From Phycisphaerae bacterium (GTDB taxonomy: Bacteria > Planctomycetota > Phycisphaerae > UBA1845 > Fen-1342): DNA of 17,168 nt. Shown piece after piece: positions 1 to 15,403 of the stretch. The translations under genes and the position numbers were made by a program. Below the pieces are notes generated by a model. The model searched no databases. It saw nothing but the letters and a program-made list of their open reading frames with translations, and was not told the DNA's origin. Each line of letters starts with the position of its first letter. Position 1 is the stretch's first letter. The DNA lies in the NCBI GenBank assembly GCA_026984555.1, contig JALSRY010000205.1:1-17168 (forward strand), written 5' to 3'.

Positions 1-781
1 TCGCCCGCGACCAGACAACCTTGCCCTTGTAACGCAGGTACTCCTCGCCGCCCGGCGTCTTCACGGGGATGCGGGCTCCCTCGCGCTCATCACCCAACGC
101 GATGGCCACCACCGGCACCTTCATGTCCTTCCACAAGGCGGCCGCGGCCTCCACCGGAAAACTCTCGTGGTCCTCCCCGTCGGTGATCAGCAGCACGACC
201 TTGTGCGTGTCGAGCGAATCCTGAAAACACTCTTCCGCCTTGCGGATAGCGTCGCCGATCAGCGTCCCGCCACGCGGGCTGCTGTTCGTGGACACGTCGT
301 CCAGGGCCAGCCGGAAAAACCCGTAGTCGTGCGTGAGCGGACATTTGAGCGTCGCGGCGCCCGCGAACGTGATCAGCCCGATGCGGTCTCCGCCCAACGC
401 CGGCAGAAGATCGTCGCGGATCGAGAGCTTCGCCCGTTCGAGACGGTTGGGGGCAATGTCTCGCGCCAGCATCGAACGCGAAACATCCAGCAGAACCATC
501 ACGTCGATGCCCCGCCGCATCACCGTTTGTTCACGCTCACCCCAGCGCGGATGGATGATGGCCGCGGTCAGCAGCACCAGCGTCAACAAGATCAACGCAA
601 GACGCGAAAGCCCGCGTATCCAGCTCGTCGGACACGTGAGCCGGCCGAGCAATCCCGCATCCGCGAAGACCCGCAGCGATCGACGACGCTGCCAGATTCC
701 CCACACGCCCGCCACCCCCACCAGCAGAACCACCCACAACAGGTGCAGCCAACGCAGGTCGTCGAAAACAACGTTCCTCAC
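1..781 (-). CDS. BatB-like VWA-domain membrane protein, C-terminus outside window
   Basis: Probably an inner-membrane protein with a periplasmic or cytoplasmic von Willebrand A domain, as in Bat (Bacteroides aerotolerance) operons; the biochemical role of the family is unsettled. Two hydrophobic segments lie near the N-terminus (about residues 11-29 and 58-76). The VWA domain follows, with a complete MIDAS start (Asp99-Val-Ser101-Arg-Ser103, in the string LLDVSRSM) and a later TDGED motif at about residues 200-204. About 260 codons are present; BatB proteins are usually 320-350 residues, so roughly the last 60-90 are missing. The start is a GTG whose bases overlap the TGA of the upstream BatA-like gene (GTGA), leaving no alternative spacing. 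The two-segment N-terminus followed by VWA is the same layout as the upstream gene, so the pair probably arose by duplication. Confidence 0.85.
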   Translation of the reverse strand, partial: MRNVVFDDLRWLHLLWVVLLVGVAGVWGIWQRRRSLRVFADAGLLGRLTCPTSWIRGLSRLALILLTLVLLTAAIIHPRWGEREQTVMRRGIDVMVLLDVSRSMLARDIAPNRLERAKLSIRDDLLPALGGDRIGLITFAGAATLKCPLTHDYGFFRLALDDVSTNSSPRGGTLIGDAIRKAEECFQDSLDTHKVVLLITDGEDHESFPVEAAAALWKDMKVPVVAIALGDEREGARIPVKTPGGEEYLRYKGKVVWSRA

Positions 782-1848
782 GGCGTCTTCCTCAGCACGG
801 TGTGGTCGAGCAGCGTTTGCAACGCGAGGGCACCAAACGCCACCACCAGCCACCAGTGCGACAATTCACCCCAGCGCGTGTAACGCTTTTCCTCGACCTT
901 CGTGCGCTCGAGCTTGTCGATCTCCGCGTAGATGTGCGCCAGCGCCTCCGCGTTCGTCGCACGGAAAAACTTCCCGCCGCTTACCTCGGCGATACGCTTG
1001 AGATCCTTCTCCGGCACCGGCACCCGAAACCCCGGGCCAACCAGTTTCCCCGTCCCCGCCAGGATCGTGTATACCTTGATGCCCCACGTCGCGGCGAGAT
1101 CCCCCGCCTGCTCCGGCGTCACCATGCCGTAGTTGTTCTCGCCGTCCGTCAGCAGCACGACCACCCGGCTCGTGATCGTGAGTTGCTCGCCCGTGCCGAG
1201 CGTGCGCTTGAGATCCTTGAGCCGCTCGACGGCCAGCGCCAGCCCGTCGCCGATCGCCGTCCCGTCTTCGTCGCGATGCGTGACGATGTGTGTGTGGTCC
1301 AGTACGTCCAGCAGGGCCTTGTGGTCCAGCGTGAGCGGGCAGACCGCGTCCGCATAGCGGGCGAAGCGAATCATGCCGATCAGGTCGTTCGGTCGACCCC
1401 GCAGACCGAGCTCCTTGTCGCCCACGACGAACTTGCGGAACACCTCCTTGACCACGTCGAGTCGCGTGGCCTGCTCCCCAGGCGGCGACAGGTCCACATC
1501 ACGCATCGACCCGGACGTATCCACAACCATCTGGATCGCGATTCCCTCGGCGAAAACGTGCGTGGATTCATCCGGCCGCTGGGGCCGCGCCGCGGCCACG
1601 ATCAGGCACCCCAGCCCAATCGTGCGCAGCACCGGCAGCACGAGACGGAGCCGGCGCCGCATCCCGCCCCCCGCGCCACGCAACGTCGCCAGCCCCGAAA
1701 AGCGAACCACCGTTTGCCGCCGCGGCCGCATCCACACGACCCACAGCAGCGGCAGCAGGAGCAGTCCGAGCAACAACCAGACCCAAGGCTCGGGCCACTG
1801 GAGCCACGCCGGTGTCAGCGGAAGATGCCTGTGGATCACCGGGTTCAT
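778..1848 (-). CDS. BatA-like VWA-domain membrane protein
   Basis: A 356-residue VWA protein of the BatA type. Hydrophobic segments are at about residues 15-37 and 62-85, followed by the VWA domain with an intact MIDAS (Asp110-Thr-Ser112-Gly-Ser114) and a TDGENN motif that supplies the later metal-site Asp. A last hydrophobic segment near the C-terminus (HWWLVVAFGALALQTLL) is typical of BatA. An in-frame extension to 2007 exists, but the ATG at 1848 overlaps the stop of the preceding gene as ATGA and is followed at once by the conserved membrane region, so I chose it. The gene sits between the BatD-like lipoprotein and the BatB-like protein, matching the family's usual order. In known systems these proteins are thought to work with a MoxR ATPase in envelope stress or aerotolerance; that role is inferred here. 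Confidence 0.85.
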   Translation of the reverse strand: MNPVIHRHLPLTPAWLQWPEPWVWLLLGLLLLPLLWVVWMRPRRQTVVRFSGLATLRGAGGGMRRRLRLVLPVLRTIGLGCLIVAAARPQRPDESTHVFAEGIAIQMVVDTSGSMRDVDLSPPGEQATRLDVVKEVFRKFVVGDKELGLRGRPNDLIGMIRFARYADAVCPLTLDHKALLDVLDHTHIVTHRDEDGTAIGDGLALAVERLKDLKRTLGTGEQLTITSRVVVLLTDGENNYGMVTPEQAGDLAATWGIKVYTILAGTGKLVGPGFRVPVPEKDLKRIAEVSGGKFFRATNAEALAHIYAEIDKLERTKVEEKRYTRWGELSHWWLVVAFGALALQTLLDHTVLRKTP

Positions 1849-2903
1849 GCCGCGTCCTCCGCCGATACGGAGACCCGGCTCGCGGTCTCGCGACACGATT
1901 GTTCCGCGGCGCTGGCCGTCGAATCGACGAACGCCCGTGCCGTTCGCACCGCTGCTCGCGCGTCCTCGACGCGGGGGGCGTAGGCGGCGTACTTCACCAG
2001 GTCGCACGCCGTGAGAAAATCACGCAGCCGGCCCGCGTCGAAAGGCACCGCATGACGCCTCTGCGCCAGCGTCCGCAGGAATTCTTCCGTCGTCATCTCC
2101 GGCGCCGCCAGGCCGAACTGTCGCTCGATGTAGCTACGCACGATTTCGCTCAGCCCGTAATAAAACGGTCGAAACGCACCACGCTCCAGCAGGTCCCCCG
2201 CTTCCAGCTCCGCCAACGCTCGCAGCGCCCACACCACCGGCGGAATCGGTGGGGCGGGACGCTGACGCCGGCCACGCGACCAACGCACGAACCACCACCC
2301 CAACGCCGCCAGCCCAACCACCACCAGCGCCAGTGTCGCCCAGAACAACGGCCCCGGCGGCGGCGCCCGAGGAACCAGCGGGGGCGCGATGTCACGCGGC
2401 TGCAAGACACTGTCCTGCGAGCTCAACGCCGAACGTACCTCCAGCGCCACCGCCGGCGTCGATAGATCGTGGTCCAGCGTCGCCTCCGAGCCGGACTGCG
2501 ACGACCGGCGCCCATAACGAACCGTCAGCGCCGGTATCTCGATCCGACCGGAGCTCAGCGAGCGGAGCGTGAACGACTCCTCCCAGTCACTGCCGCCCGC
2601 CGTGCCCGGGTACGGCCCCCCGACCCGCGGGTCTTCCACCAGCCACGCTCCCAGCGAAGACACGTCCGGCATCTTCGCGGTCAAACCCTCCGGCAGGTGC
2701 AGCCGAAGCGTTACCGCGAACGGATCACCAACCCATCCCTGCTTCGGCGACACCTCGATCACGAGCCGGATCGGCCCCCGTTCTACCTTCTGTACAATGG
2801 TCGTCGGGGCCGGTGGCTCCGCGCGCCGACAACCGCCGAATGCGGCTGTCACCAGCACGGCCGCCCAACCCGGCCAACCAGGCCCGCGGCGCTCCCCCCT
2901 CAT
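1845..2903 (-). CDS. BatD-like lipoprotein with DUF4381-like C-terminal region
   Basis: A 352-residue protein. The N-terminus has a short hydrophobic stretch ending in a lipobox-like AFGGC with Cys25, so it is probably a lipoprotein facing the periplasm. Residues about 40-160 form a beta-rich region with the string VSPKQGWVGDPFAVTLRL, which resembles the repeated beta-sandwich domains of BatD. A single transmembrane helix is at about 186-208. The cytoplasmic tail (about 225-330, containing FYYGLSEIVRSYIERQFG and an MTTEEFL motif) resembles DUF4381. The start ATG overlaps the stop of the DUF58 gene (ATGA). It is shorter than most BatD proteins and fuses features usually carried on two proteins (BatD and DUF4381), which is common in compact Bat operons. 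Function is inferred from family and context only. Confidence 0.7.
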   Translation of the reverse strand: MRGERRGPGWPGWAAVLVTAAFGGCRRAEPPAPTTIVQKVERGPIRLVIEVSPKQGWVGDPFAVTLRLHLPEGLTAKMPDVSSLGAWLVEDPRVGGPYPGTAGGSDWEESFTLRSLSSGRIEIPALTVRYGRRSSQSGSEATLDHDLSTPAVALEVRSALSSQDSVLQPRDIAPPLVPRAPPPGPLFWATLALVVVGLAALGWWFVRWSRGRRQRPAPPIPPVVWALRALAELEAGDLLERGAFRPFYYGLSEIVRSYIERQFGLAAPEMTTEEFLRTLAQRRHAVPFDAGRLRDFLTACDLVKYAAYAPRVEDARAAVRTARAFVDSTASAAEQSCRETASRVSVSAEDAA

Positions 2904-3775
2904 CGCCGCCGCCCCCGCTGGTGAAAGAACCGTCGCAGCGGCTCCACGAACGATTGCCCGGTCTCTACTTCCACGACGTCGATCCCCAGCCGGCGAAATC
3001 CCGCCAGCAACGCGGCTTCACGCGCTCGCGCAAGCGCCGCAAACCGCTGCCGTAACGCCCGCGACGACGTGTCGACCAGGAGTTGTTCTCCCGTCTCGGC
3101 GTCGTAAAACTCGACGTAGCGGACCGCCGGCAGTTCCCGTTCGCGGCGGTCGCGCACGAGCACCGGGATGACATCGTGCCGCCGGCGAAGCGATTTCAGC
3201 GCCCGCGAAAAATCGGGCGTTTGGAAATCGCTGATGATGAACACCACCGCCCGGCGGTTGAGGACTCGGTCTACGTATTCCAACGCGCCGCCCACGTCCG
3301 TCCCCCGGCCGGCGGGCCGGTGGTACAGCAACTCGCGGATCACACGCAGGACGTGACGCGTTCCCTTGTCCGCGCGCACGAACCGCTCGACCCGATCCGA
3401 AAACAGTACCAGCCCCACCTTGTCGTTATTACGCACCGCCGAAAACGCCAGCGTCGCACCCAGCTCGGCCACCAGCTCGCTCTTGAGCTGGTCACGAGTA
3501 CCGAACTCCTGCGACGCGCTCACATCCACCACCAGCACGACGGTCAGCTCACGCTCTTCGCGGAACCGCTTGACGAACGGCCGCCCGTGGCGGGCCGTCA
3601 CGTTCCAGTCGATCGTGCGCACATCGTCGCCGGGCAGGTACTCCCGCACCTCCTCGAACTCGATTCCCATCCCCTTGAATGCGGAATGGTACTGACCTGC
3701 CAGCAGATCGTTGACCATCGCCGATGTGACGATCTGGATCCGCCGCACTTTCTTGAGGATTTCCGCTGGTACCAT
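2900..3775 (-). CDS. DUF58 domain protein
   Basis: A soluble 291-residue DUF58 protein, first gene of the Bat-type operon. The family signature REYLPGDDVRTIDW lies at residues 44-57, after FKGMGIEFEEV. A VWA-like fold follows, with Asp84-Val-Ser86-Ala-Ser88 (VVDVSAS), which keeps the DxSxS metal-binding pattern. A later IISDFQ segment corresponds to the second acidic position. Most DUF58 genes lie directly after a MoxR-family AAA+ ATPase; here the gene opens the operon and no moxR is found within the 1.1 kb upstream. I chose the ATG at 3775 because the family begins right there (VPAEILKKVRRIQ); a GTG five codons upstream (3790) is also possible, and neither has a strong ribosome binding site. 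The molecular role of DUF58 is not known. Confidence 0.88.
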   Translation of the reverse strand: MVPAEILKKVRRIQIVTSAMVNDLLAGQYHSAFKGMGIEFEEVREYLPGDDVRTIDWNVTARHGRPFVKRFREERELTVVLVVDVSASQEFGTRDQLKSELVAELGATLAFSAVRNNDKVGLVLFSDRVERFVRADKGTRHVLRVIRELLYHRPAGRGTDVGGALEYVDRVLNRRAVVFIISDFQTPDFSRALKSLRRRHDVIPVLVRDRRERELPAVRYVEFYDAETGEQLLVDTSSRALRQRFAALARAREAALLAGFRRLGIDVVEVETGQSFVEPLRRFFHQRGRRR

Positions 3776-3870
3776 CGCGCACTGTCTCACCGCGGACGCG
3801 ACACAGCCGCCGCGCCGCCATCACCCCGTTGTGGCCGCGGGCCGCGCTCCACGACGCGACCCGCATGCGC

Positions 3871-4883: not shown

Positions 4884-7800
4884 TCAGTGAAAATCGCGTG
4901 AGGAAAGGCGCAAGCGCGACAGATGGCGGCCCAGGTTCGCCAAACGCTCCGCCAACACATGGACGACCTCGCCTTGCCGTTCGAGCCGCCCCTCCACCAC
5001 CAGCCCTACGCTCGCGTGCGCGATGAAACGGTAACGCTGCCAGACGGCGGGACGGATCACCAGGTTTACCAGCCCCGTTTCATCCTCGAGCGTGACGAAC
5101 GTGATTCCGCCTGCCGTCCCCGGTCGCTGGCGCAGCGTCACCAGGCCGGCGACGGCGACCGCTTGTCCGGGACGCAGACGCCGCAGACACGCCGCCGGCA
5201 CGATTCGCAGCCTTCGGCGTCCGATGGTGCGGGAGTTCAGCTCGGCGCGCAACAGCCCGATCGGATGTGCCCGTAGTGAGAACCCGAGCGCGTCGTAGTC
5301 CTCGGCCATCGCCTCGCTGGTCGGTGCCCGTGGCAGGGTGACGGCGGGCTCGGCGGCTTCGAGCGTGGCAAAAAGCGACTGGCGGTTGTCCTCCGCCGCC
5401 AGAATCTGCCAGAGTGCTTCACGACGGGAAAGCCCCAGGGATCCGAACGCGTCCGCCGCCGCCAGGCGCAACAGTGTTTCACGTGAAACATCGTTGCGCA
5501 ACGCGAGCTGTTGAATCGACCGGATGGCCCCCGCACGCCTCGCCGCGACGATGCCGCGTACCTTTTCGTCACTCAGCCCGCGCACCAGGCGCATACCCAG
5601 CCGCAACGCCGGCGGTCGTCTCTGCACCGCCTCCAGGGTGCAGTCGTAGTCACTGTGGTTGACATCGACGGGCCGCACCGCGACCCCGTGCGCAATCGCG
5701 TCGCGCACCAGTTGCCCGGGGCTGTAGAAGCCGAGCGGTTGGGCATTGAGCATCGCGGCACAGAATGCCGCCGGGTGGTAGTGTTTCAACCACGCCGACG
5801 CATAGACCAGCAGCGCGAACGACGCCGCGTGACTCTCGGGAAAACCATATTCCGCGAACCCGGCGATCTGCTTGTAGATTTGCTCGGCGAAGTCAACACT
5901 GTAACCGCGTTGCAACATGCCTTGCACGAGTTTACGCTGAAACTGTTGCATTTTGCCACTACGCCGCCACGCCGCCATCGCCCGGCGAAGCTGGTCGGCC
6001 TCGCCCGGCGTGAAACCCGCCGCCACCACCGCCAATCGCATCACCTGTTCCTGGAACAGCGGCACGCCCAGCGTCTTGGCCAGCACCTCCCGTACCGCTT
6101 CGCTGGGGTACGTCACCGGCTCGCGACCGTTGCGGCGGCGCAGATAGGGGTGGACCATCCCCCCCTGGATCGGCCCCGGCCGGACGATCGCCACCTCGAT
6201 CACCAGATCGTAGAAACACCGCGGTCGCAGACGCGGCAACATGCTCATCTGCGCCCGCGACTCGATCTGAAACACGCCCACGGTATCCGCGCGGCAGATC
6301 ATGTCATAGACGGCGGGGTCTTCGGGGGGAATGTCGGTGAGCGAACGGGGAACGCGGCCAGGCAGCGACGAAGCGCCCGACGAGGGGCGTTCTTCCTTTG
6401 GCAAGCCGCTCAACAGCGCAAGACACTTGCTGATCGCCGTCAGCATGCCCAGCGCCAGGCAGTCCACCTTGAGGATCCCGAGCGCGTCGATGTCGTCTTT
6501 GTCCCATTCGATGAAGGTACGACCGGGCATGGCGGCGTTTTCGAGCGGGACGATCTCGCAGAGTGGCGATTCGGTGATGACGAAGCCGCCGACGTGCTGC
6601 GAAAGATGACGCGGGAACCCGATGATCTGCTCCACCAGACGCACGAGCATCCGCACGGTACGGTCGTGCGGGTCGAGACCGACGTGGCGGATGACCGCCT
6701 CGGGGAGCGGCTCGCGGTCGGACCACTCACGCGACTTGGCCAGCGCATCCACACAGTCGAGCGAAAGGCCTAACGCCTTGCCGACATCACGGATCGCCGA
6801 TCGGGGACGATAGGTGATGACTTCGGCGGTGATGGCCGCACGCTCGCGACCGTACTTGCGGTAGATGTACTGGAACACTTCTTCGCGGCGTTCGTGCTCG
6901 AAATCGACGTCGATATCGGGGGGCTCATTGCGTTCGCGGCTGATGAAACGTTCGAAGAGCAGATCGATTCGCCGGGGATCGACGGCGGTGATGCCGAGGC
7001 AATAGCAGACCGCGGAATTCGCTGCCGATCCCCGACCCTGGCAGAGGATGCCACGACTGCGGGCGAAACGCACCAGGTCGTAGACGGTGAGGAAATAGTG
7101 CTCGTAGCCGAGTTCCGCAATCAACTTCAACTCGGTTTCGAGCCGCTGGCGTAATGCCGGCGGCAGGGCGGCGGGGGCGTCCGCGGGGTCCACGCCGCTG
7201 CACCGAGCCGCTCCGGCCCAAGTGAGGCGACGCAAGGTTTCGATCGGCGTCATCCCTGCCGGGCAGACCTCGTGCGGATATTCGTAACGAAGCTCGTCGA
7301 GTCGAAACGTGCAACGCTCGGCGATCTCGACGGTGCGGGCGACGGCGGCCTCATGGCCGCGGGTACGCCGGGCGAGTTCGGGGAGCGGGCGCAGGTGGCG
7401 TTGGGCGTTGGGGTGGAGGCGCGTACCGGCCTCGGCAAGGGTGCAACGCAGCCGAATGCACGTGAGCACGTCCTGGAGGTAACGCCGTTGGGGATCGTGG
7501 TAATGGACGTTGCCGGTGGTCACCAGCGGCACGCCGGCGCGGGCCGCGAGTCGGCTCTGACGTCGAAGATGCGTTTCGTCGGGGAGCTGGTGATCGAGCT
7601 CGACGGCGAGATAAAGCCGGTCGGCGAACATGTCCTTGTATCGCCAAAGCGTCTGGACGGTGGGGGAGGGATGCGAGAGGGACTCGGGGCCAAGGGATGC
7701 GGGCAACGCGATGGCGATCAGGCCCTCGGCCAGGTCGGCGATGTCGTCGAGGCGGATTTCGCAACAACCCTTCGATGCACGCAGCTTTCCGCGTGTCAGC

Positions 7801-8198
7801 AGACGCGCCAGATGCCCGTAGGCGCCGCGGTCGGAAGCGAGCAACACGAGCGGGGGGGCGTCGATGGGGACGATCTCCGCACCAATCAACAGGTGCAGCC
7901 CGCATTCCTCCGCGGCCTGGTGGGCACGCACCACGCCGGCGAGCGAGTGGCGGTCCGTCAGGGCGAGGGCTTCGTATCCCAGTTCGGCGGCCCGATGGAC
8001 AAGCTCCTCGGGATGCGAGGCGCCGCGGAGAAACGAAAAGTTGCTCAGGCAGTGAAGCTCGGCATAGCGCAGTGGGTTCTCAGAACGTGGCCGACCCCGA
8101 GAGGACGCGGCGCTGGCGGCGGGCGCTGCGGATCGGCCGGCGGCGGGGACACGCCCCGGGGCGGAGTCGTTGGCTGCGGAGCATCGAGGCGCACACAT
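4884..8198 (-). CDS. dnaE2: Error-prone DNA polymerase DnaE2 (ImuC)
   Basis: The catalytic alpha subunit of a C-family DNA polymerase, used for SOS mutagenesis and lesion bypass. From the chosen ATG it has 1104 residues, normal for the family. An N-terminal PHP domain starts at about residue 45 (YAELHCLSNFSFLRGASHPE). The polymerase core has the metal-binding PDIDVDF, with Asp428, Asp430 and Asp432, and a third likely catalytic Asp579 in ILKVDCLALGML. The fingers region carries AGFAEYGFPESHAASFALL, followed by helix-hairpin-helix and C-terminal OB-fold regions. The last residues, SRDFH, are the usual ending of ImuC/DnaE2 and separate it from replicative DnaE1. An in-frame TTG at 8285 is rejected because it lies inside the promoter (8264-8292). 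The first 44 residues are rich in Ala, Pro and Arg and unlike the family. The usual partners imuA and imuB are not adjacent. Confidence 0.95.
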   Translation of the reverse strand: MCAPRCSAANDSAPGRVPAAGRSAAPAASAASSRGRPRSENPLRYAELHCLSNFSFLRGASHPEELVHRAAELGYEALALTDRHSLAGVVRAHQAAEECGLHLLIGAEIVPIDAPPLVLLASDRGAYGHLARLLTRGKLRASKGCCEIRLDDIADLAEGLIAIALPASLGPESLSHPSPTVQTLWRYKDMFADRLYLAVELDHQLPDETHLRRQSRLAARAGVPLVTTGNVHYHDPQRRYLQDVLTCIRLRCTLAEAGTRLHPNAQRHLRPLPELARRTRGHEAAVARTVEIAERCTFRLDELRYEYPHEVCPAGMTPIETLRRLTWAGAARCSGVDPADAPAALPPALRQRLETELKLIAELGYEHYFLTVYDLVRFARSRGILCQGRGSAANSAVCYCLGITAVDPRRIDLLFERFISRERNEPPDIDVDFEHERREEVFQYIYRKYGRERAAITAEVITYRPRSAIRDVGKALGLSLDCVDALAKSREWSDREPLPEAVIRHVGLDPHDRTVRMLVRLVEQIIGFPRHLSQHVGGFVITESPLCEIVPLENAAMPGRTFIEWDKDDIDALGILKVDCLALGMLTAISKCLALLSGLPKEERPSSGASSLPGRVPRSLTDIPPEDPAVYDMICRADTVGVFQIESRAQMSMLPRLRPRCFYDLVIEVAIVRPGPIQGGMVHPYLRRRNGREPVTYPSEAVREVLAKTLGVPLFQEQVMRLAVVAAGFTPGEADQLRRAMAAWRRSGKMQQFQRKLVQGMLQRGYSVDFAEQIYKQIAGFAEYGFPESHAASFALLVYASAWLKHYHPAAFCAAMLNAQPLGFYSPGQLVRDAIAHGVAVRPVDVNHSDYDCTLEAVQRRPPALRLGMRLVRGLSDEKVRGIVAARRAGAIRSIQQLALRNDVSRETLLRLAAADAFGSLGLSRREALWQILAAEDNRQSLFATLEAAEPAVTLPRAPTSEAMAEDYDALGFSLRAHPIGLLRAELNSRTIGRRRLRIVPAACLRRLRPGQAVAVAGLVTLRQRPGTAGGITFVTLEDETGLVNLVIRPAVWQRYRFIAHASVGLVVEGRLERQGEVVHVLAERLANLGRHLSRLRLSSRDFH

Positions 8199-8263
8199 GG
8201 TGGTTCTGGCAATTCGCCCATCCGCTGATCGGATGCCGGAAGCTGTTCGTTTCGCCGCGGAAA

Positions 8264-8292
8264 AGTGTAACCTAACAAACACCAAATATCAA
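8264..8292 (-). promoter_or_regulatory. Candidate sigma70 promoter of dnaE2
   Basis: On the minus strand, TTGATA (8287-8292, five of six consensus) and TACACT (8264-8269, four of six) are separated by exactly 17 bases. Transcription would start near 8257, giving a leader of about 58 bases before the ATG at 8198. A full LexA palindrome (CGAAC-N4-GTTCG or CTG-N10-CAG) was not found; a half-site-like CGAAC lies just downstream of the -10. Confidence 0.55.
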
Positions 8293-8485
8293 GGTGCGGG
8301 GATCGCGGCCGGGGGGTATGCCGCGGCGTCTGGTGGGGGCGGGTCGGTGCGTGTCCTCGGGTTGTGCGGTTTCGTGGATACCGACGTGTCGGATTTCGCT
8401 CGTTCCAGGTCGGGAAACGGTCCGTGCGGCAGGACGGCTCCAAGGGGGGCGGCAACCAGGGGGGGAGGACGCAGCGTGGGCGCAG

Positions 8486-8528
8486 AAAAAAGGCGACGCG
8501 AGGTGGAGCGAAGAAGCCCGTGGCGTCC
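8486..8528 (-). terminator. Candidate minus-strand intrinsic terminator
   Basis: Read on the minus strand, GGACGC (8523-8528) pairs with the GCGT(CG)CC strand at 8492-8499, with a two-base bulge and a long loop, and is followed directly by six T (8486-8491). It would end a minus-strand transcript that comes from the structured region at 8760-9600. The stem has only six pairs, so this is a moderate call. Confidence 0.35.
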
Positions 8529-8619
8529 TTCAGAGTATTCGGGCCCACTGCTCGAAACGTCCACGTTTCCGCAGACGAGTCGTCCTCTTGTGGGGTTGGC
8601 GTCTCGCTCAGAGTATTCG
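8521..8619. repeat. Imperfect direct repeat, two copies
   Basis: Copy 1 is 8521-8541 and copy 2 is 8597-8619. Both read TGGCGTC, then a short variable stretch, then TCAGAGTATTCG on the plus strand. A shortened relative (CAGAGTATCG) is at 9302-9311. The bases between the two copies contain small palindromes (GAAACGT-CC-ACGTTTC and GACGA-G-TCGTC). Confidence 0.6.
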
Positions 8620-8759
8620 ATTCGACAAGGTACCGTCCGTATGGGTTAGACGAACCCGCTTCGCCGTTGGCCGTTGCCTCGGCCTTGCGGTTTTCCCGTG
8701 CCGAACCTCGAAGACCGATAGTCAAACCGGCCGTCCGAATCCTCTCGCCGAGTTGGCCT

Positions 8760-9600
8760 CCCTGTAGAGTTTTGCCCAGTGAACCCTAGCCGGTCGCACG
8801 CGGCACACCGGCTCCTCTCATGGACTTTGCTCCCCTACAGCACATCAAGACCCGGAAGTCCACTGCTCGCGGGGGTTCCGCGCCCCGCTACGTTCCGCCC
8901 TCAGGGTTTGGTTACCCTCTCGGCGGCTTTCTCCTTCCGAGCCCGTGCCGGCCTTGTTTCGTGCCGGCAGCGCTCATGGGGTTTGCCCTTCGGAGCTTTC
9001 CCCTTCCACAAGGTACGCGGGCGTTACCACCCGTGTGAACCCACCTGTCGTTTCTCCCGCCACTACCGCCACCGCCGAAGCGGCGACCCGTCGCGGCAGG
9101 CCGCGACTCCTGGGCTTTGACCCTTGGGGAAGTCCCTTGCGACCCCGCGTGTGTTTAGCACGCGCAACCGCCGGCTGCTCCCTTGGGTTTTTTCCCTTCC
9201 AGGGCATTTGAGCGACAGCCTTGAGCGGCTTCCGCCGCTCTCCTCTCTCGTGCTTTGCTGAGCGATCCATCCGCGGAGGCAGACCGCTTCAGCCGGCACC
9301 CCAGAGTATCGATCGGCTCTCGCCAACCTCTTCCGCGCCCGCGGGCGAGCCCTTCGGGCGGGGGACGAGGCAACCCTCGTAGGGTTTTCGCACCGGTCCG
9401 TTCCCAAGCATTCGAGCGCCGTCCACCTCGGGCTTATGCGTTCGCCTCACGCCGCGTCGCGCGTTGCCGCCGACCGTCCGACGCTCTTTGAGGTGACCGG
9501 CCCCCTGCCGGAGCTGCCAAGGATCGGCCGTGGTGCCGAGCCTTCGCGACCTCAACGTCGCACCTCAAGTGTTGCCTATAAAAACCGCGAGTGCAAATCG
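8760..9600 (-). ncRNA. Candidate large structured non-coding RNA, family not identified
   Basis: No protein domain is recognisable on either strand, but perfect hairpins are dense. Pairs (plus-strand positions) include 8788-8794/8807-8813, 8821-8827/8856-8862, 8895-8899+8903-8907/8914-8918+8922-8926, 9072-9075/9080-9083, 9090-9096/9101-9107, 9146-9151/9159-9164, 9223-9229/9234-9240, 9365-9370/9375-9380 and 9546-9550/9557-9561. Strand polarity is minus. Hairpin 9072-9083 has a cUUCGg loop there and is extended by G-U pairs; hairpin 9223-9240 has a GGAA (GNRA) loop; and hairpin 8895-8926 has a purine GAG/GAG internal loop. On the plus strand these become CGAA, TTCC, A/C mismatches and CTC/CTC. 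The limits are approximate. An ORF-less ribozyme or an orphan OMEGA (HEARO)-type guide RNA are possible identities, but no group II domain V and no iscB/tnpB gene is visible. Confidence 0.5.
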
Positions 9601-9716: not shown

Positions 9717-9946
9717 CCTGGTGCGGGTGTGTTTTTTTTCTTTTGACATCGCGATGACATCCGCTGTTCGACCCAGTCCGGGCAATTACCTGGAGCGTGG
9801 CCGTTTTCGCCGATTGCTAGTCAAGCCGCGATCCCGAATGACGATAAAACTTGTTGATCGAGGCGTGTCGCCGCCCGCGTCGTGGCGGGCCGGGCGCCGC
9901 CGGGAACACCTACGCGCGCCGTCGGAAGGCCACACGGGAGAATCCA
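9717..9946 (+). other. Leader region of the chemoreceptor gene
   Basis: No gene is seen in these 230 bases. A perfect TTGACA is present at 9743-9748, but no matching -10 box lies 16-18 bases downstream, so I do not call a promoter. The ribosome binding site of the next gene (GGGAG, 9936-9940, six bases before the ATG) closes the region. Confidence 0.5.
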
Positions 9947-11872
9947 ATGACTCGACGCCTCTCATTGAACGCTCGGCTGGGGCTCATTCTCGGCGTATTC
10001 GCCGTACTGGTCGCCGGCATTGTCGGTGTGACGTTCTGGGTGACCGAGGCCCAGAAGGGAGACGCCGTCGTCATCAACCTGGCGGGTCGGCAGCGGATGC
10101 TGACGCAGAAGCTGACGAAGGCGACGCTGGGGTACGTGATCGAGCTGCGCGAGACGGACGAGGCTCGCAAGCAGGTGGACTTGCTCGTGGATACGCGGAG
10201 CCACCTGGCGAAGTCGATCGCCGCGGCGAAGAAGGCGGGCGATTTCAAGCTGACCGACACGACGTTGAACTTCGCGCCCGCTGCGGCCGCCCGACAGATC
10301 GCGGCGACGTTTTCGAAGGACAAGAACCTCCGGTTGCGGCAGGTATCGCTCAAGTACCGCAACCCGGCCAACAAGCCGGACGCCTACGAGGCTCGCGTAT
10401 TGGCGATGATGGCGAAAGACCCGAAGGGGTGGAAGGGACGCGACTGGGTCGAAAAGGTGGTCGATGGCGATCACGCGGTGATGCGCTACATGCGGCCGAT
10501 TTTCGTGAAACAATCGTGCCTGACCTGCCACGGCGACCCGGAGAAGATTCCGGCATTCGTGCGGGATAAATATCCCGACGACCACGCGACCGGTTACAAG
10601 GTCGGGGAGCTGCGCGGGGCGATCTCGGTATCGTGGCCGACGCGAGCCAAGAGCCTTTCCGAGCACAAGACCGAGGCGATGGGCGCGCGCAAGCTGTTCG
10701 CCGAAACGCTCCAGGCCCTGATCCAGGGCGGGCCGGCGAGCATGGGCAAACAAAAGCCCGTACTGCCGGCGTGCGACGACCCGGCCATTCGGGCCCAGCT
10801 CGCGAAAGTGACGAAGTTGTGGAAGGCGTTCAACGCCAGCATCGATGTCATTTTCAGCGACGAAGGAACGGCCAATCCACGATTCCTGCAAGCACTCAAC
10901 ATCGTGCTGGGAGAGAACCAGACGCTGCTGGCGGAGATGAACAAAGCCGTCGGCATGTTCCAGGAGAAATCGGAAGCGCGCACGGCCCTGATGCGAAACA
11001 TCCAGCTCGGGGCGCTGGGCGTCGCGGTGGTCGTGTTCGTGGTCGTGCTGGTGTACATCCGCCGCGCGGTCACGACGCCCATTCTCCAGTCGGTGGGTAT
11101 GCTCAACGACGGAGCGGATCAGGTCAGTGACGCGGCCAGTCAGGTCTCGGGTGCCGCCCAGAGCCTGGCCGAGAGCTCGTGTGAGCAGGCGTCCTCACTG
11201 GAACAGACGTCGAGTGCGCTCGAGGAGATGTCGGCGATGACCAAGGCGAACTCGGAGAAGGCCCAGATGGCCAACGAGCTCACCGGCCACGCCCGCGATT
11301 CGGTCACGGGCTGCAACGAGACGATGGGGCGTCTGAATGACGCCATGGGTGGCATCAGCGAGGCTTCCGGGCGGATCAGCAAGATCATCAAGGTCATCGA
11401 GGAGATCGCCTTCCAGACGAATCTGTTGGCGCTCAACGCGGCGGTCGAGGCGGCCCGCGCCGGCGAGCACGGCAAGGGTTTTGCGGTCGTAGCCGATGAA
11501 GTGCGGACGCTGGCGATGCGCAGTGCCGAAGCCGCCAACGAAACCACGGACCTGATCCAGGAAGCGGTCAACAAGGTCGAACAGGGCGCCGCCGTCTCGC
11601 AGGAGATGAACACCGCGCTCGCGCAGATCGTCGAGAACGTCAGCCAGGTTGGTGAGCTCATCGGCGGCATCAACGAGGCCAGCGCCGAGCAAGCCCGGGG
11701 CGTCGACCAGATCGCGTCCGCCGTCACCCGCATCGACCAGGCCACGCAGCAGAACGCCGCCAACGCCGAGGAGTCGGCGGCTGCGGCCGAAGAGCTCTCC
11801 GCCCAGTCGGTGACGGTCAAGACCGCGGTTGGCGACCTCTACGCTCTGGTCGCCGGCGGTTCGAAAGGCTGA
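9947..11872 (+). CDS. Methyl-accepting chemotaxis protein with PilJ-like and DUF3365 c-haem sensor
   Basis: A 641-residue inner-membrane chemoreceptor. Transmembrane helix 1 is at about residues 10-32 and helix 2 at 352-374, enclosing a large periplasmic sensor. The sensor opens with [13 protein letters not shown] (44-56), the signature of the PilJ/NarX-type N-terminal domain. It then carries a DUF3365 (Tll0287-like) region with a c-type haem motif Cys191-Leu-Thr-Cys194-His195, and ends with a further helical stretch before helix 2. The cytoplasmic part is a standard signalling coiled coil, with the hairpin tip at about 485-523 ([20 protein letters not shown]). I see no clear HAMP domain after helix 2 and no C-terminal CheR-binding pentapeptide. 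It probably senses redox state, O2 or NO through the haem; that is inferred from the family. The start at 9947 has GGGAG six bases upstream. The gene stands alone, with no che genes nearby. Confidence 0.93.
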
Positions 11873-13522: not shown

Positions 13523-14626
13523 GTGAGCGTGGTTCCTGATCGATTCGACCTTGTGGTTGTCGGTGGTGGTCCCGCCGGCGCGACCGCCGCGGCCCGCGCG
13601 GCCCGCGAAGGGGCCACGGTGGCGGTGATCGAAAGGGCTCGTGTGCCCCGTCCGCGGCGTTGCACGGGGTGGCTGGGACCGGCCGGGGTGGCGATGTGCG
13701 CGGATATCGGTTTGGTCGCCCGCAAGGCCGGGGCGCGTCCTTTCTCCAGCGTGCGCTTGCACTCCTGGGACTTGCAACGCAGCGCGCATATCGAGGATCC
13801 GGAGTTGCGCGGGTGGCTGATCGACCGCGGCCCGTTCGACGACGCGGTACTCGACTGCGCCACCAGCGCCGGCGCGCACACCATCACCGGCGTCGAAGTC
13901 GCTGACATCCACCTGGGCGAGGACGAGGCCGCGGCTCATCTGCGCGACGGGCGGCGCGTGGTCGGTCGAATCATGCTGATCGCCGACGGCGTTCATTCGC
14001 CCGTCGGCCAGCGGGCGGGGCTCACCCCCGCGATCGGGGTGCCGCGCCTGCCGTGCTGCGCCTTCGTCGAGTTCACGTCGCGAAGCAAGGGCGTCGGCCT
14101 GGAAATCGCCGTCGGCGCCAGCCGCAGCGGGCAGGTCGTCACCGTGATGCGGGCGGGAAACGGTGGGCGAGTCTCGCTGATGATGCGCGGCGAGCCGGCG
14201 GAAGTGCGGTCGGCGTTCGTGGCGTTCAACACCGCCGCGGCGCACAAGGGCCTGTTGCCCGATGACTTGCCCGCCCCGCGCATGCGCCTTTCCCCCGCGG
14301 GAGCCGCCCTCGACCTGGAAACCCACGTGGGCAAACGCTGCGTGCTCATCGGCGATGCGGGCGGCTTCGTGGCCGCGTTCAGCAACGAGGGCATCTACCC
14401 CGCGATGCGCTCGGGTTGGATCGCCGCGGAGGTGGCGTTGCGTGCGTTGGCGGCGGCGGTACCGCAGGATGAGCTGGCGACGTTCGGGCCGCAGTGGCGT
14501 CGCGAGTTGGCCGACTATCTCCGCATGCCCAATACCGACTTGAGCTTGCTCGTTCCGCTGGTGTTCAACAACGAGCAGATGTCCCGCCGGGTCGTTCGCT
14601 CGTTCCTGTTGGGGCAACCGTTCTGA
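13523..14626 (+). CDS. FAD-dependent oxidoreductase, geranylgeranyl reductase family
   Basis: A 367-residue flavoprotein. The N-terminal Rossmann motif is Gly14-x-Gly16-x-x-Gly19 (VVVGGGPAGATAAA) with Glu37 at the end of strand 2 to bind the ribose. The second FAD motif is Gly277-Asp278-Ala279-Gly280, followed by FSNEGIYPAMRSG, which is characteristic of geranylgeranyl reductases and related lipid-modifying flavoproteins. RCTGWLGPAG near residue 46 corresponds to the family's Cys-containing segment. The likely reaction is reduction of double bonds in an isoprenoid or related lipid, but the substrate cannot be read from sequence, and a halogenase- or hydroxylase-like role is not excluded. The start is GTG at 13523; AGGGCGAGG (13512-13520) sits better for a second GTG at 13529, two codons later. 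It lies 9 bases after the MCE gene. Confidence 0.85.
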   Translation: MSVVPDRFDLVVVGGGPAGATAAARAAREGATVAVIERARVPRPRRCTGWLGPAGVAMCADIGLVARKAGARPFSSVRLHSWDLQRSAHIEDPELRGWLIDRGPFDDAVLDCATSAGAHTITGVEVADIHLGEDEAAAHLRDGRRVVGRIMLIADGVHSPVGQRAGLTPAIGVPRLPCCAFVEFTSRSKGVGLEIAVGASRSGQVVTVMRAGNGGRVSLMMRGEPAEVRSAFVAFNTAAAHKGLLPDDLPAPRMRLSPAGAALDLETHVGKRCVLIGDAGGFVAAFSNEGIYPAMRSGWIAAEVALRALAAAVPQDELATFGPQWRRELADYLRMPNTDLSLLVPLVFNNEQMSRRVVRSFLLGQPF

Positions 14627-14836: not shown

Positions 14837-15403
14837 ATGAAGGTTTGTTCAGCCGCCGGGTGCGATGTGGGTATGGATGTTGACTTGCAGGAACTGACGA
14901 TCGTTCACTATCCCGATCCGTGTTTGCGCAAGGTTTGTGAGCCGATCACACGTTTTGACGACGATCTGGCGGCGTTTGCCGCGCGGATGATCGAGTTGAT
15001 GCACGCCGGCAAGGGGGTCGGCCTGGCGGCGCCCCAGGTTGGGATTCTCAAGCGTTTGTTTGTGATGAACGCTACGGGCGAAGAGGGGGATGACTGCGTT
15101 TTCGTGAACCCGGAAATCCACGACATGCGAGGCAACAAGGAGGCCGAGGAGGGGTGCTTGTCGATCCCGGAGGTGTACGTGCAGGTTCGCCGGGCGTTGC
15201 GTTGCCGGATCGTGGGGCAGAATCTCGCGGGCGAGCCGGTGGAAGTGGATCTCGAGGAGTTGCCGGCGCGGATCTGCCAGCACGAGACCGATCATCTCAA
15301 CGGGGTTCTGATCCTGGATCGCATGGGGCCGGGAGACCGGATCAAGGTTCGCAAGCGGCTTCGTGAGCTGGAGGCCGCGTACAAGTCTCGCGGGTCGCGT
15401 TGA
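14837..15403 (+). CDS. def: Peptide deformylase
   Basis: Removes the formyl group from the N-terminal formylmethionine of new proteins, a cytosolic metalloenzyme working at the ribosome exit. All three family motifs are present: GVGLAAPQ (residues 60-67), EEGCLS (104-109) with metal ligand Cys107, and QHETDH with ligands His149 and His153 and catalytic Glu150. The third motif has Thr where Tyr, Phe or Leu is more common (HExDH), which should not affect catalysis. The length of 188 residues is usual. The ATG at 14837 is given; a second ATG at 14873 would place the start six residues before the conserved TIVHYPDPCL and is equally credible, since neither has a strong ribosome binding site. It is the first gene of a def-fmt-rsmB unit, and its product acts on the product of fmt's pathway. 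Confidence 0.96.
   Translation: MKVCSAAGCDVGMDVDLQELTIVHYPDPCLRKVCEPITRFDDDLAAFAARMIELMHAGKGVGLAAPQVGILKRLFVMNATGEEGDDCVFVNPEIHDMRGNKEAEEGCLSIPEVYVQVRRALRCRIVGQNLAGEPVEVDLEELPARICQHETDHLNGVLILDRMGPGDRIKVRKRLRELEAAYKSRGSR

Follow-up and report, generated by a model that had tools for sequence, protein, structure and literature searches.

A conserved, structured noncoding RNA of about 1 kb between dnaE2 and a chemoreceptor gene in a Phycisphaerae bacterium

The stretch of DNA analysed here, referred to as the window, is a contig (C205) of 17,168 nucleotides from the fragmented genome of a Phycisphaerae bacterium (3.48 Mb, 88.7% complete). The feature of interest is flanked downstream by dnaE2 (4884-8285, minus strand) and upstream by a chemoreceptor gene (9851-11872, plus strand, in divergent orientation). 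Elsewhere in the window, the minus strand at 781-3790 carries genes with BatA/VWA, DUF4381, and DUF58 domains, a set reminiscent of Bat aerotolerance-type operons, and an FAD-dependent oxidoreductase-like gene is located at 13523-14626 on the plus strand. A preliminary description of the region had proposed that the minus strand between the two flanking genes encodes a large structured RNA. Three lines of evidence speak strongly for this proposal: base pairs covary, relatives carry promoter-like boxes and a T-run at constant positions, and reading frames are not maintained.

Homologues were collected with blastn, using positions 8700-9600 as the query against 101 genomes, its own included. A single site was found in the bacterium's own genome, and there were matches in 44 of the 101 genomes (own included), with 57 having none. 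An HMM was then made from 30 aligned loci. It recovered the element in the window and, of the 44 loci fetched, in 43, corresponding to 43 genomes; a 34-base blastn match in genome G051 was dropped, as the HMM had no match in its locus (L074). Two loci (L065 and L073) are contig-end halves from one genome, G092, and were excluded from the main alignment, which contains 42 sequences, the window and 41 others. Five near-duplicates (L037, L039, L048, L061, and L071) were excluded from alignments A1 and A4. For alignment A3, which holds 53 sequences, six of 59 sources were excluded and five second-site matches were also removed by the E-value limit. The named relatives are metagenome-assembled genomes (MAGs) labelled Phycisphaerae, Phycisphaerales, Planctomycetota, or similar.

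Within the 42-sequence alignment, conservation extends from about 9580 to 8480, with little beyond. The RNA gene, with a predicted transcript of about 1,070 nt, covers 8486-9562 on the minus strand, and the span 9562-8492 measures 1017-1121 nt across the 42 sequences (median 1055, window 1071). The RNA is located where the preliminary description had placed it, but the limits given there (8760-9600) are too narrow and miss the 3′ quarter: the closing helix's 3′ strand and the T-run, together with domain F, fall mostly in 8486-8777. From the promoter-like boxes, the closing helix, and the T-run, we place the predicted 5′ end near 9562 and the predicted 3′ end in the T-run. At the promoter position (9568-9596, minus strand), the alignment highlights TTGCAC (9596-9591), 17 nt, and AACACT (9573-9568), the second box being degenerate in the window. 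Each of the 41 other sequences has a TA-starting −10-like box, lying 6-8 nt ahead of the base at which the closing helix (P1) begins, and a −35-like box 16-18 nt further upstream, with at most 5 of 12 mismatches in 40 sequences and 6 of 12 in one. Of 168 control stretches further upstream, 45 contained a TA box within the permitted distance, and the best three of these had 5 mismatches. In the same scan, the sole TA box of the window was 11 nt away and had 8 of 12 mismatches; a sequence from the same genus (L031) has TTGCCT-17-TATGTT. Since its −10 box is degenerate, the copy in the window may be weakly expressed or decaying. A simple promoter and terminator scan of the window reported neither signal, as would be expected from a degenerate −10 box and a terminator-like hairpin with a loop of 1 kb.

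The helix that closes the whole molecule, P1, is formed by 11 bp between a 5′ strand at 9550-9561 and a 3′ strand at 8493-8503 on the minus strand, and includes three significantly covarying pairs. Standard pairs occupy 407 of its 462 alignment cells, and the weakest pair (9553/8500) forms in 23 of 42 sequences. The complementarity is kept in L067, L070, and L071, where the strands are strongly altered. Directly after the 3′ strand there is a T-run (8486-8491 in the window, minus strand); at least four T follow P1 in 41 of the 42 sequences, which is terminator-like with P1 as the hairpin. Of the 41 sequences with a T-run, 28 have GCGC no more than 10 nt after it (8480-8486 in the window), a separate observation that the model leaves unexplained. 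The predicted fold also allows the 5′ strand of P1 to form a local hairpin (9545-9561), so a switch during transcription is possible.

Evidence for the structure comes from a consensus generated by RNAalifold on the 42 sequences, the window among them. Covariation was assessed with a tree-aware test, using our own script in the manner of R-scape. Its null model redistributed the Fitch substitutions on a FastTree tree of the 42 sequences over other columns in 20 replicates, and pairs were scored by a G statistic with average-product correction (E < 0.05). This test identified 48 of 306 structure pairs as significant, in a comparison where the structure was derived from the same alignment; the cleaner test, on all column pairs at least 4 apart, gave 19 significant pairs, 18 in the structure, one adjacent to it, and none elsewhere. 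The homologues therefore contain compensatory base changes beyond phylogenetic expectation, as befits a structured noncoding RNA. Further evidence was obtained across phyla for the core of domain D, from which a covariance model (R1) was built. In the 53 sequences of A3, an alignment fitted to the model structure and so biased towards it, 97.2% of 2256 cells are paired and 36 of 43 pairs change on both sides. The covariation score and every other measure of this core were reached by none of 500 shuffles, and sliding one side by 1-3 columns reduced pairing to 39-48%. A 38-sequence alignment of the D core has 39 invariant positions, paired and unpaired together.

The preference for the minus strand that had been read from local sequence signs is borne out by folding. 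With a covariance bonus on either strand, RNAalifold scored the 42 sequences at −683 kcal/mol (minus) versus −590 kcal/mol (plus), and the stretch 8760-9600 folded with z = −5.0 (minus) versus z = −1.8 (plus) relative to 20 dinucleotide shuffles per strand, none of which was as good in either case. The three features that had been singled out as pointing to one strand all recur in the 42-sequence consensus, with differing degrees of covariation. The stem of the GGAA tetraloop (9240-9234/9229-9223) has three significant pairs, and the cUUCGg stem (9087-9080/9075-9068) has none. The GAG/GAG internal loop lies between stems 8926-8922/8899-8895 and 8918-8914/8907-8903, which have no significant pairs in the tree-aware test and changes on both sides in 8 of 10 pairs of the 53-sequence alignment.

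Inside P1 is a second helix, P2 (9542-9537 with 8520-8515, minus strand; 6 bp, one significant pair), and within both are five domains, A to E, with a further domain, F, nested in E. All are on the minus strand. Domain A (9390-9536) consists of helices from 9536-9532/9394-9390 inwards, with 11 significant pairs together. Domain B (9194-9384) is defined by consensus helices, and domain C (8985-9188), defined by the consensus structure and the covariation test, holds the UUCG hairpin. Domain D with its 5′ flank (8822-8998, with D itself at 8981-8832) forms the core for R1 and a second model, R2, and is supported by the pairing in the 53 sequences. Domain E (8525-8825) has a base in which GUCC-AUG-AGAG (8825-8815) faces CUCU-GAA-GGAC (8535-8525), with one significant pair in the helix; its 3′ strand ended at 8774 in an earlier fold of a shorter alignment, and is at 8535-8525 in the longer one. 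Domain F (8586-8777, about 8769-8587) is enclosed by E.

Arms B to E each begin with a short helix, followed by a 3x3 internal loop and another helix. The consensus contains eight such loops between 8660 and 9380 on the minus strand, and this recurring loop is purine-rich, with a signature (5′-RNG/5′-GNR) that is frequent in six of them, reversed in one, and mostly missing in one. The signature occurs in 42 of 42 sequences at 9184/8991, 41 at 9302/9249, 39 at 8748/8609, 38 at 8921/8902, 34 at 8977/8838, and 21 at 9380/9200, where it is reversed in 11 others. At 9110/9046 the reversed form is found in 41 of 42 sequences, and loop 8686/8662 is mostly without it (9 of 42). The linkers between domains end in AA, with A frequencies at the two positions of 100/100% (A-B), 100/98% (B-C), 100/100% (C-D), and 93/98% (D-E); the linker preceding F is A-rich with lower conservation. 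No conserved palindromic loops of the kind that could mediate kissing-loop multimers were found in the 42 sequences: a pair of large, variable loops have palindromic 6-mers in 11 and in 15 of 42 sequences, and elsewhere these occur in 1 and 2 of 42.

Domains D and F, each of about 180 nt, resemble one another. R2 is a covariance model built from the D core and R3 a model built from the F domains of 37 sequences from the window's order, aligned without D sequences; calibration of R1 to R3 was short, making their E-values rough. In the window, R2 matched F at 8593-8772 (E 4e-6), and R3, with domain limits picked after the R2 match was known, matched D at 8816-9003 with an E of 5.3e-9, which ranks second among its matches in 17 kb. 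Both models were then applied to 34 loci, of which 29 are distant loci drawn from a set of 40. At E ≤ 0.01, R2 identified a further site downstream of D in 25 loci and upstream in 6, and R3 found F downstream of D in all 29 distant loci, partially in L149. These reciprocal matches show a similarity beyond chance, indicating that D and F are diverged copies of one RNA domain. Domain B is perhaps a weak third copy of the same fold: R2 matched it at 9185-9401 (E 0.0026), and the third match of R3 was to its inner part (9244-9314, E 3.3e-4). This assignment is not secure, because R2 scores an unrelated plus-strand site in dnaE2 (7468-7618) at E 0.0068; the fourth match of R3 was likewise to an unrelated plus-strand site (15229-15321, E 0.0072). 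A 12-nt direct repeat, TCAGAGTATTCG, is also present at 8530 and 8608, in the 3′ strands of E and F.

Searches in wider samples indicate a patchy distribution. Among named genome contigs, 31 of 40 pattern matches were confirmed by the profile, of which 30 are labelled planctomycetes and one (L094) Deltaproteobacteria; the other nine, labelled Caldilineaceae, Anaerolineales, Pectobacterium, Acidobacteria, Roseovarius, Propionibacteriaceae, Akkermansia, ‘bacterium’, and Saccharibacteria, failed the profile at E 10. R1 found the RNA in 28 of 298 genomes of the class, all from the window's own order, and in 36 of 294 genomes of the phylum Planctomycetota (the window's own and 35 labelled only as same-phylum, read as members of other classes), with two matches each in G375, G474, and G501. 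Locus L094 comes from a MAG labelled Deltaproteobacteria (G606) and has three collinear profile matches, which correspond to the D core, an upstream part, and the 3′ end with T-run. This MAG has two copies on different contigs, R3 found the F domain in its locus L177, and R1 matched 10 of 195 genomes from its phylum. Judged by these matches, the RNA is present in a second phylum, reached via a MAG labelled Deltaproteobacteria. R2 found nothing in 297, 240, and 201 genomes from the phyla of the records labelled Acidobacteria, Akkermansia, and Caldilineaceae, respectively, under stricter filters and in sets with no known positive, nor in the five genomes of a further sample, also with no known positive, which leaves these empty results uninformative. 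Genomes of the window's order have a single locus each, the two pieces in G092 being contig ends. R1 had no match in G005 and G024, near-complete genomes of the window's family. The lack of a match in these two, and of a blastn match in 57 of the 101 genomes, indicates that the RNA is dispensable, not essential.

Flanking genes on both sides of the RNA differ in kind and strand from locus to locus, and clustering them by sequence across the homologue loci found no neighbour common to all clades. The one cluster that was given a name is phoH. In 14 loci a PhoH/PIN gene precedes the profile match by no more than 550 nt and has the same orientation; the window, which has no such gene, is counted among the 44 loci compared. 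An example identified by the Pfam match of its protein is the PIN-PhoH gene at 4485-5783 of L033, on the same strand as the RNA, with 13 further loci alike. The linked loci fall in three families (f1, f7, and f8), and we read this placement as a putative ancestral position; no phoH gene was found near the RNA in the distant loci, within flanks of up to 1.5 kb.

Rfam holds models for HEARO, GOLLD, ROOL, and OLE, each of which had been mentioned for this region. In a scan of Rfam 15 at gathering score, there was no family in the window, in 19 homologue loci (18 of the 40 distant loci and L094), or in a set of 10 loci, three of them repeated from the 19. Two permissive scans gave nothing beyond weak matches (E 0.63 to 9.2). 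Two of the identities originally suggested are therefore not sustained: HEARO or OMEGA RNA, for which neither the window nor the homologue loci gave an Rfam match at gathering score, and an ORF-less ribozyme in the sense of a group II intron, for which neither the gathering nor the permissive scans found an intron match. Like HEARO/OMEGA RNAs, the RNA described here is a large noncoding RNA without its own ORF; it differs in the lack of an Rfam match, and it is much longer. At least some HEARO/OMEGA members would be expected to have an adjacent RuvC/HNH nuclease gene; the neighbours in the window are dnaE2 and the chemoreceptor gene, and among the clustered neighbours of homologues phoH is the one identified by name. 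The third suggestion, an undescribed large RNA, fits the combination of covarying structure with no Rfam match.

Other large bacterial RNAs offer useful comparisons. OLE is described as a large, ornate, and conserved bacterial RNA whose biochemical function is not established, about 600 nt in length, found in Gram-positive bacteria, and a component of a ribonucleoprotein (PMC9723947, PMC12286853). It is likewise large and conserved, and differs from the RNA here in size (about 600 versus about 1,070 nt) and in its hosts; its Rfam model gave no match at gathering score in the window or homologue loci. Like the RNA here, GOLLD and ROOL are very large, multi-domain bacterial RNAs; their genes lie in phages and prophages, often close to tRNA islands (PMC12286853). 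The RNA in the window, in contrast, has no Rfam match to either, no match in a phage collection, and no conserved palindromic loops. By analogy, we infer that the AA linkers could make A-minor contacts like those reported in the GOLLD and ROOL cages (PMC12286853). The smtA motif is grouped by its authors with rare large noncoding RNAs of undetermined function, and differs in its position upstream of the gene smtA (PMC11109978). The strings ‘planctomyc’ and ‘phycisphaer’ are absent from the main texts of the GC-IGR screens PMC11109978 and PMC8632094. A description of this RNA was not found in searches of an open-licence literature library. We call the family categorically new and, under the loose heading of large ornate bacterial RNA, a new member.

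Taken together, we consider it probable that the locus is a free-standing gene for a noncoding structural RNA of about 1,070 nt, representing a new class and acting in trans. The conserved structure, the minus strand, the noncoding nature of the RNA, and the similarity of D and F are borne out by the data; the exact ends, stand-alone transcription, and action in trans are a likely reading. A trans-acting RNA with its shape as the product is suggested because there are promoter-like boxes in relatives, the ends are closed, no neighbour is shared across the clades, and the structure is conserved over classes and phyla. In this model, a housekeeping-type promoter would start transcription at the first bases of P1, and transcription would stop in the T-run right after the 3′ strand of P1, which would zip the two ends together. 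Inside P1 and P2, domains A to E would surround a hub, with linkers ending in conserved AA, and D and F (within E) would be copies of one domain, with B perhaps a third. The resulting compact RNA would work in trans, leaving the neighbouring genes unregulated.

Different explanations can be set against this model. A coding or decayed coding region, its stems a by-product of high G + C content, deserves next to no credence. There are ORFs of 88-114 amino acids on both strands, and some frame is often open: over the stretches of five such ORFs in the window, any stop-free frame exists in 31, 28, 16, 8, and 7 of the 42 sequences, and the median length of the longest open run is 196.5 codons on the plus strand. 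However, the same five ORFs are intact in only 5, 3, 2, 2, and 1 of the 42 sequences (window counted), and alignment gaps relative to the window are multiples of three in 80 of 1036 cases, 701 being single bases. Protein coding is rejected since ORFs are not kept in frame, gap lengths are not triplet-based, and base pairs covary. We put the open plus-strand frames down to G + C content, which probably accounts for them, because it is above 60% and no frame is kept. None of six ORFs tested between dnaE2 and the chemoreceptor gene had a Pfam match, consistent with the earlier impression that the region contains no recognisable protein. A cis-acting leader or attenuator controlling the next gene on the strand, here dnaE2 (8285-4884), has a very slim chance. 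The start of this ORF is about 200 nt downstream of the T-run, but the neighbours of the RNA vary in kind and strand between loci, 41 of 42 sequences have a T-run at the end of the RNA, and a length of about 1 kb far exceeds that of known riboswitches.

The possibility that the RNA belongs to a mobile element or is an orphan guide RNA, whether HEARO/OMEGA, a group II intron, or phage-borne in the manner of GOLLD and ROOL, is slim. Large ornate RNAs of such kinds exist, the distribution is patchy, and G375, G474, G501, and G606 have two copies. Against it stand the single locus per genome in the window's order, the phoH linkage across three families, and the missing Rfam match. At E 1e-5 the RNA matched nothing in phage and plasmid collections, and two viral-contig pattern matches (L115 and L116) were rejected when the profile found neither at E 10. 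A ribozyme, whose active site would be built from conserved single-stranded segments in domains such as D and F, is unlikely but carries more weight. Its size, complexity, and sequence conservation, including the 39 invariant positions of the 38-sequence D core, are what a catalytic RNA might show, yet no catalytic motif was recognised and no Rfam family, hence no ribozyme known to Rfam, was matched at gathering score. RNase P RNA (RF00010) is encoded elsewhere in the same genome (G000:C351:1762-2215, 261.6 bits), with no RF00010 match in the window. Returning to the favoured model of a trans-acting structural RNA, our best guess at what it does, by analogy with OLE, ROOL, and GOLLD, is a scaffold for a ribonucleoprotein or an RNA particle, with the ribozyme reading next in rank.

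Bacterial noncoding RNA classes of such size are few. Three of them (OLE, GOLLD, and ROOL) have been found to form unexpected assemblies (PMC12286853). The named contigs and coordinates given here let others locate and annotate this RNA in other genomes. A bolder view, which we hold tentatively as a minority prospect, is that it may be the founding member of a class of RNA machines that grew by duplication of a domain of about 180 nt. Such a particle would exceed 1 kb, be closed and pseudo-repeated, and be held together by the recurring 3x3 loop; it would occur in two or more bacterial phyla and work with no dedicated protein, as a ribozyme or an RNA-only assembly. The internal domain duplication would also make the evolution of RNA by domain repetition directly testable, by cryo-EM and by comparison of D with F.
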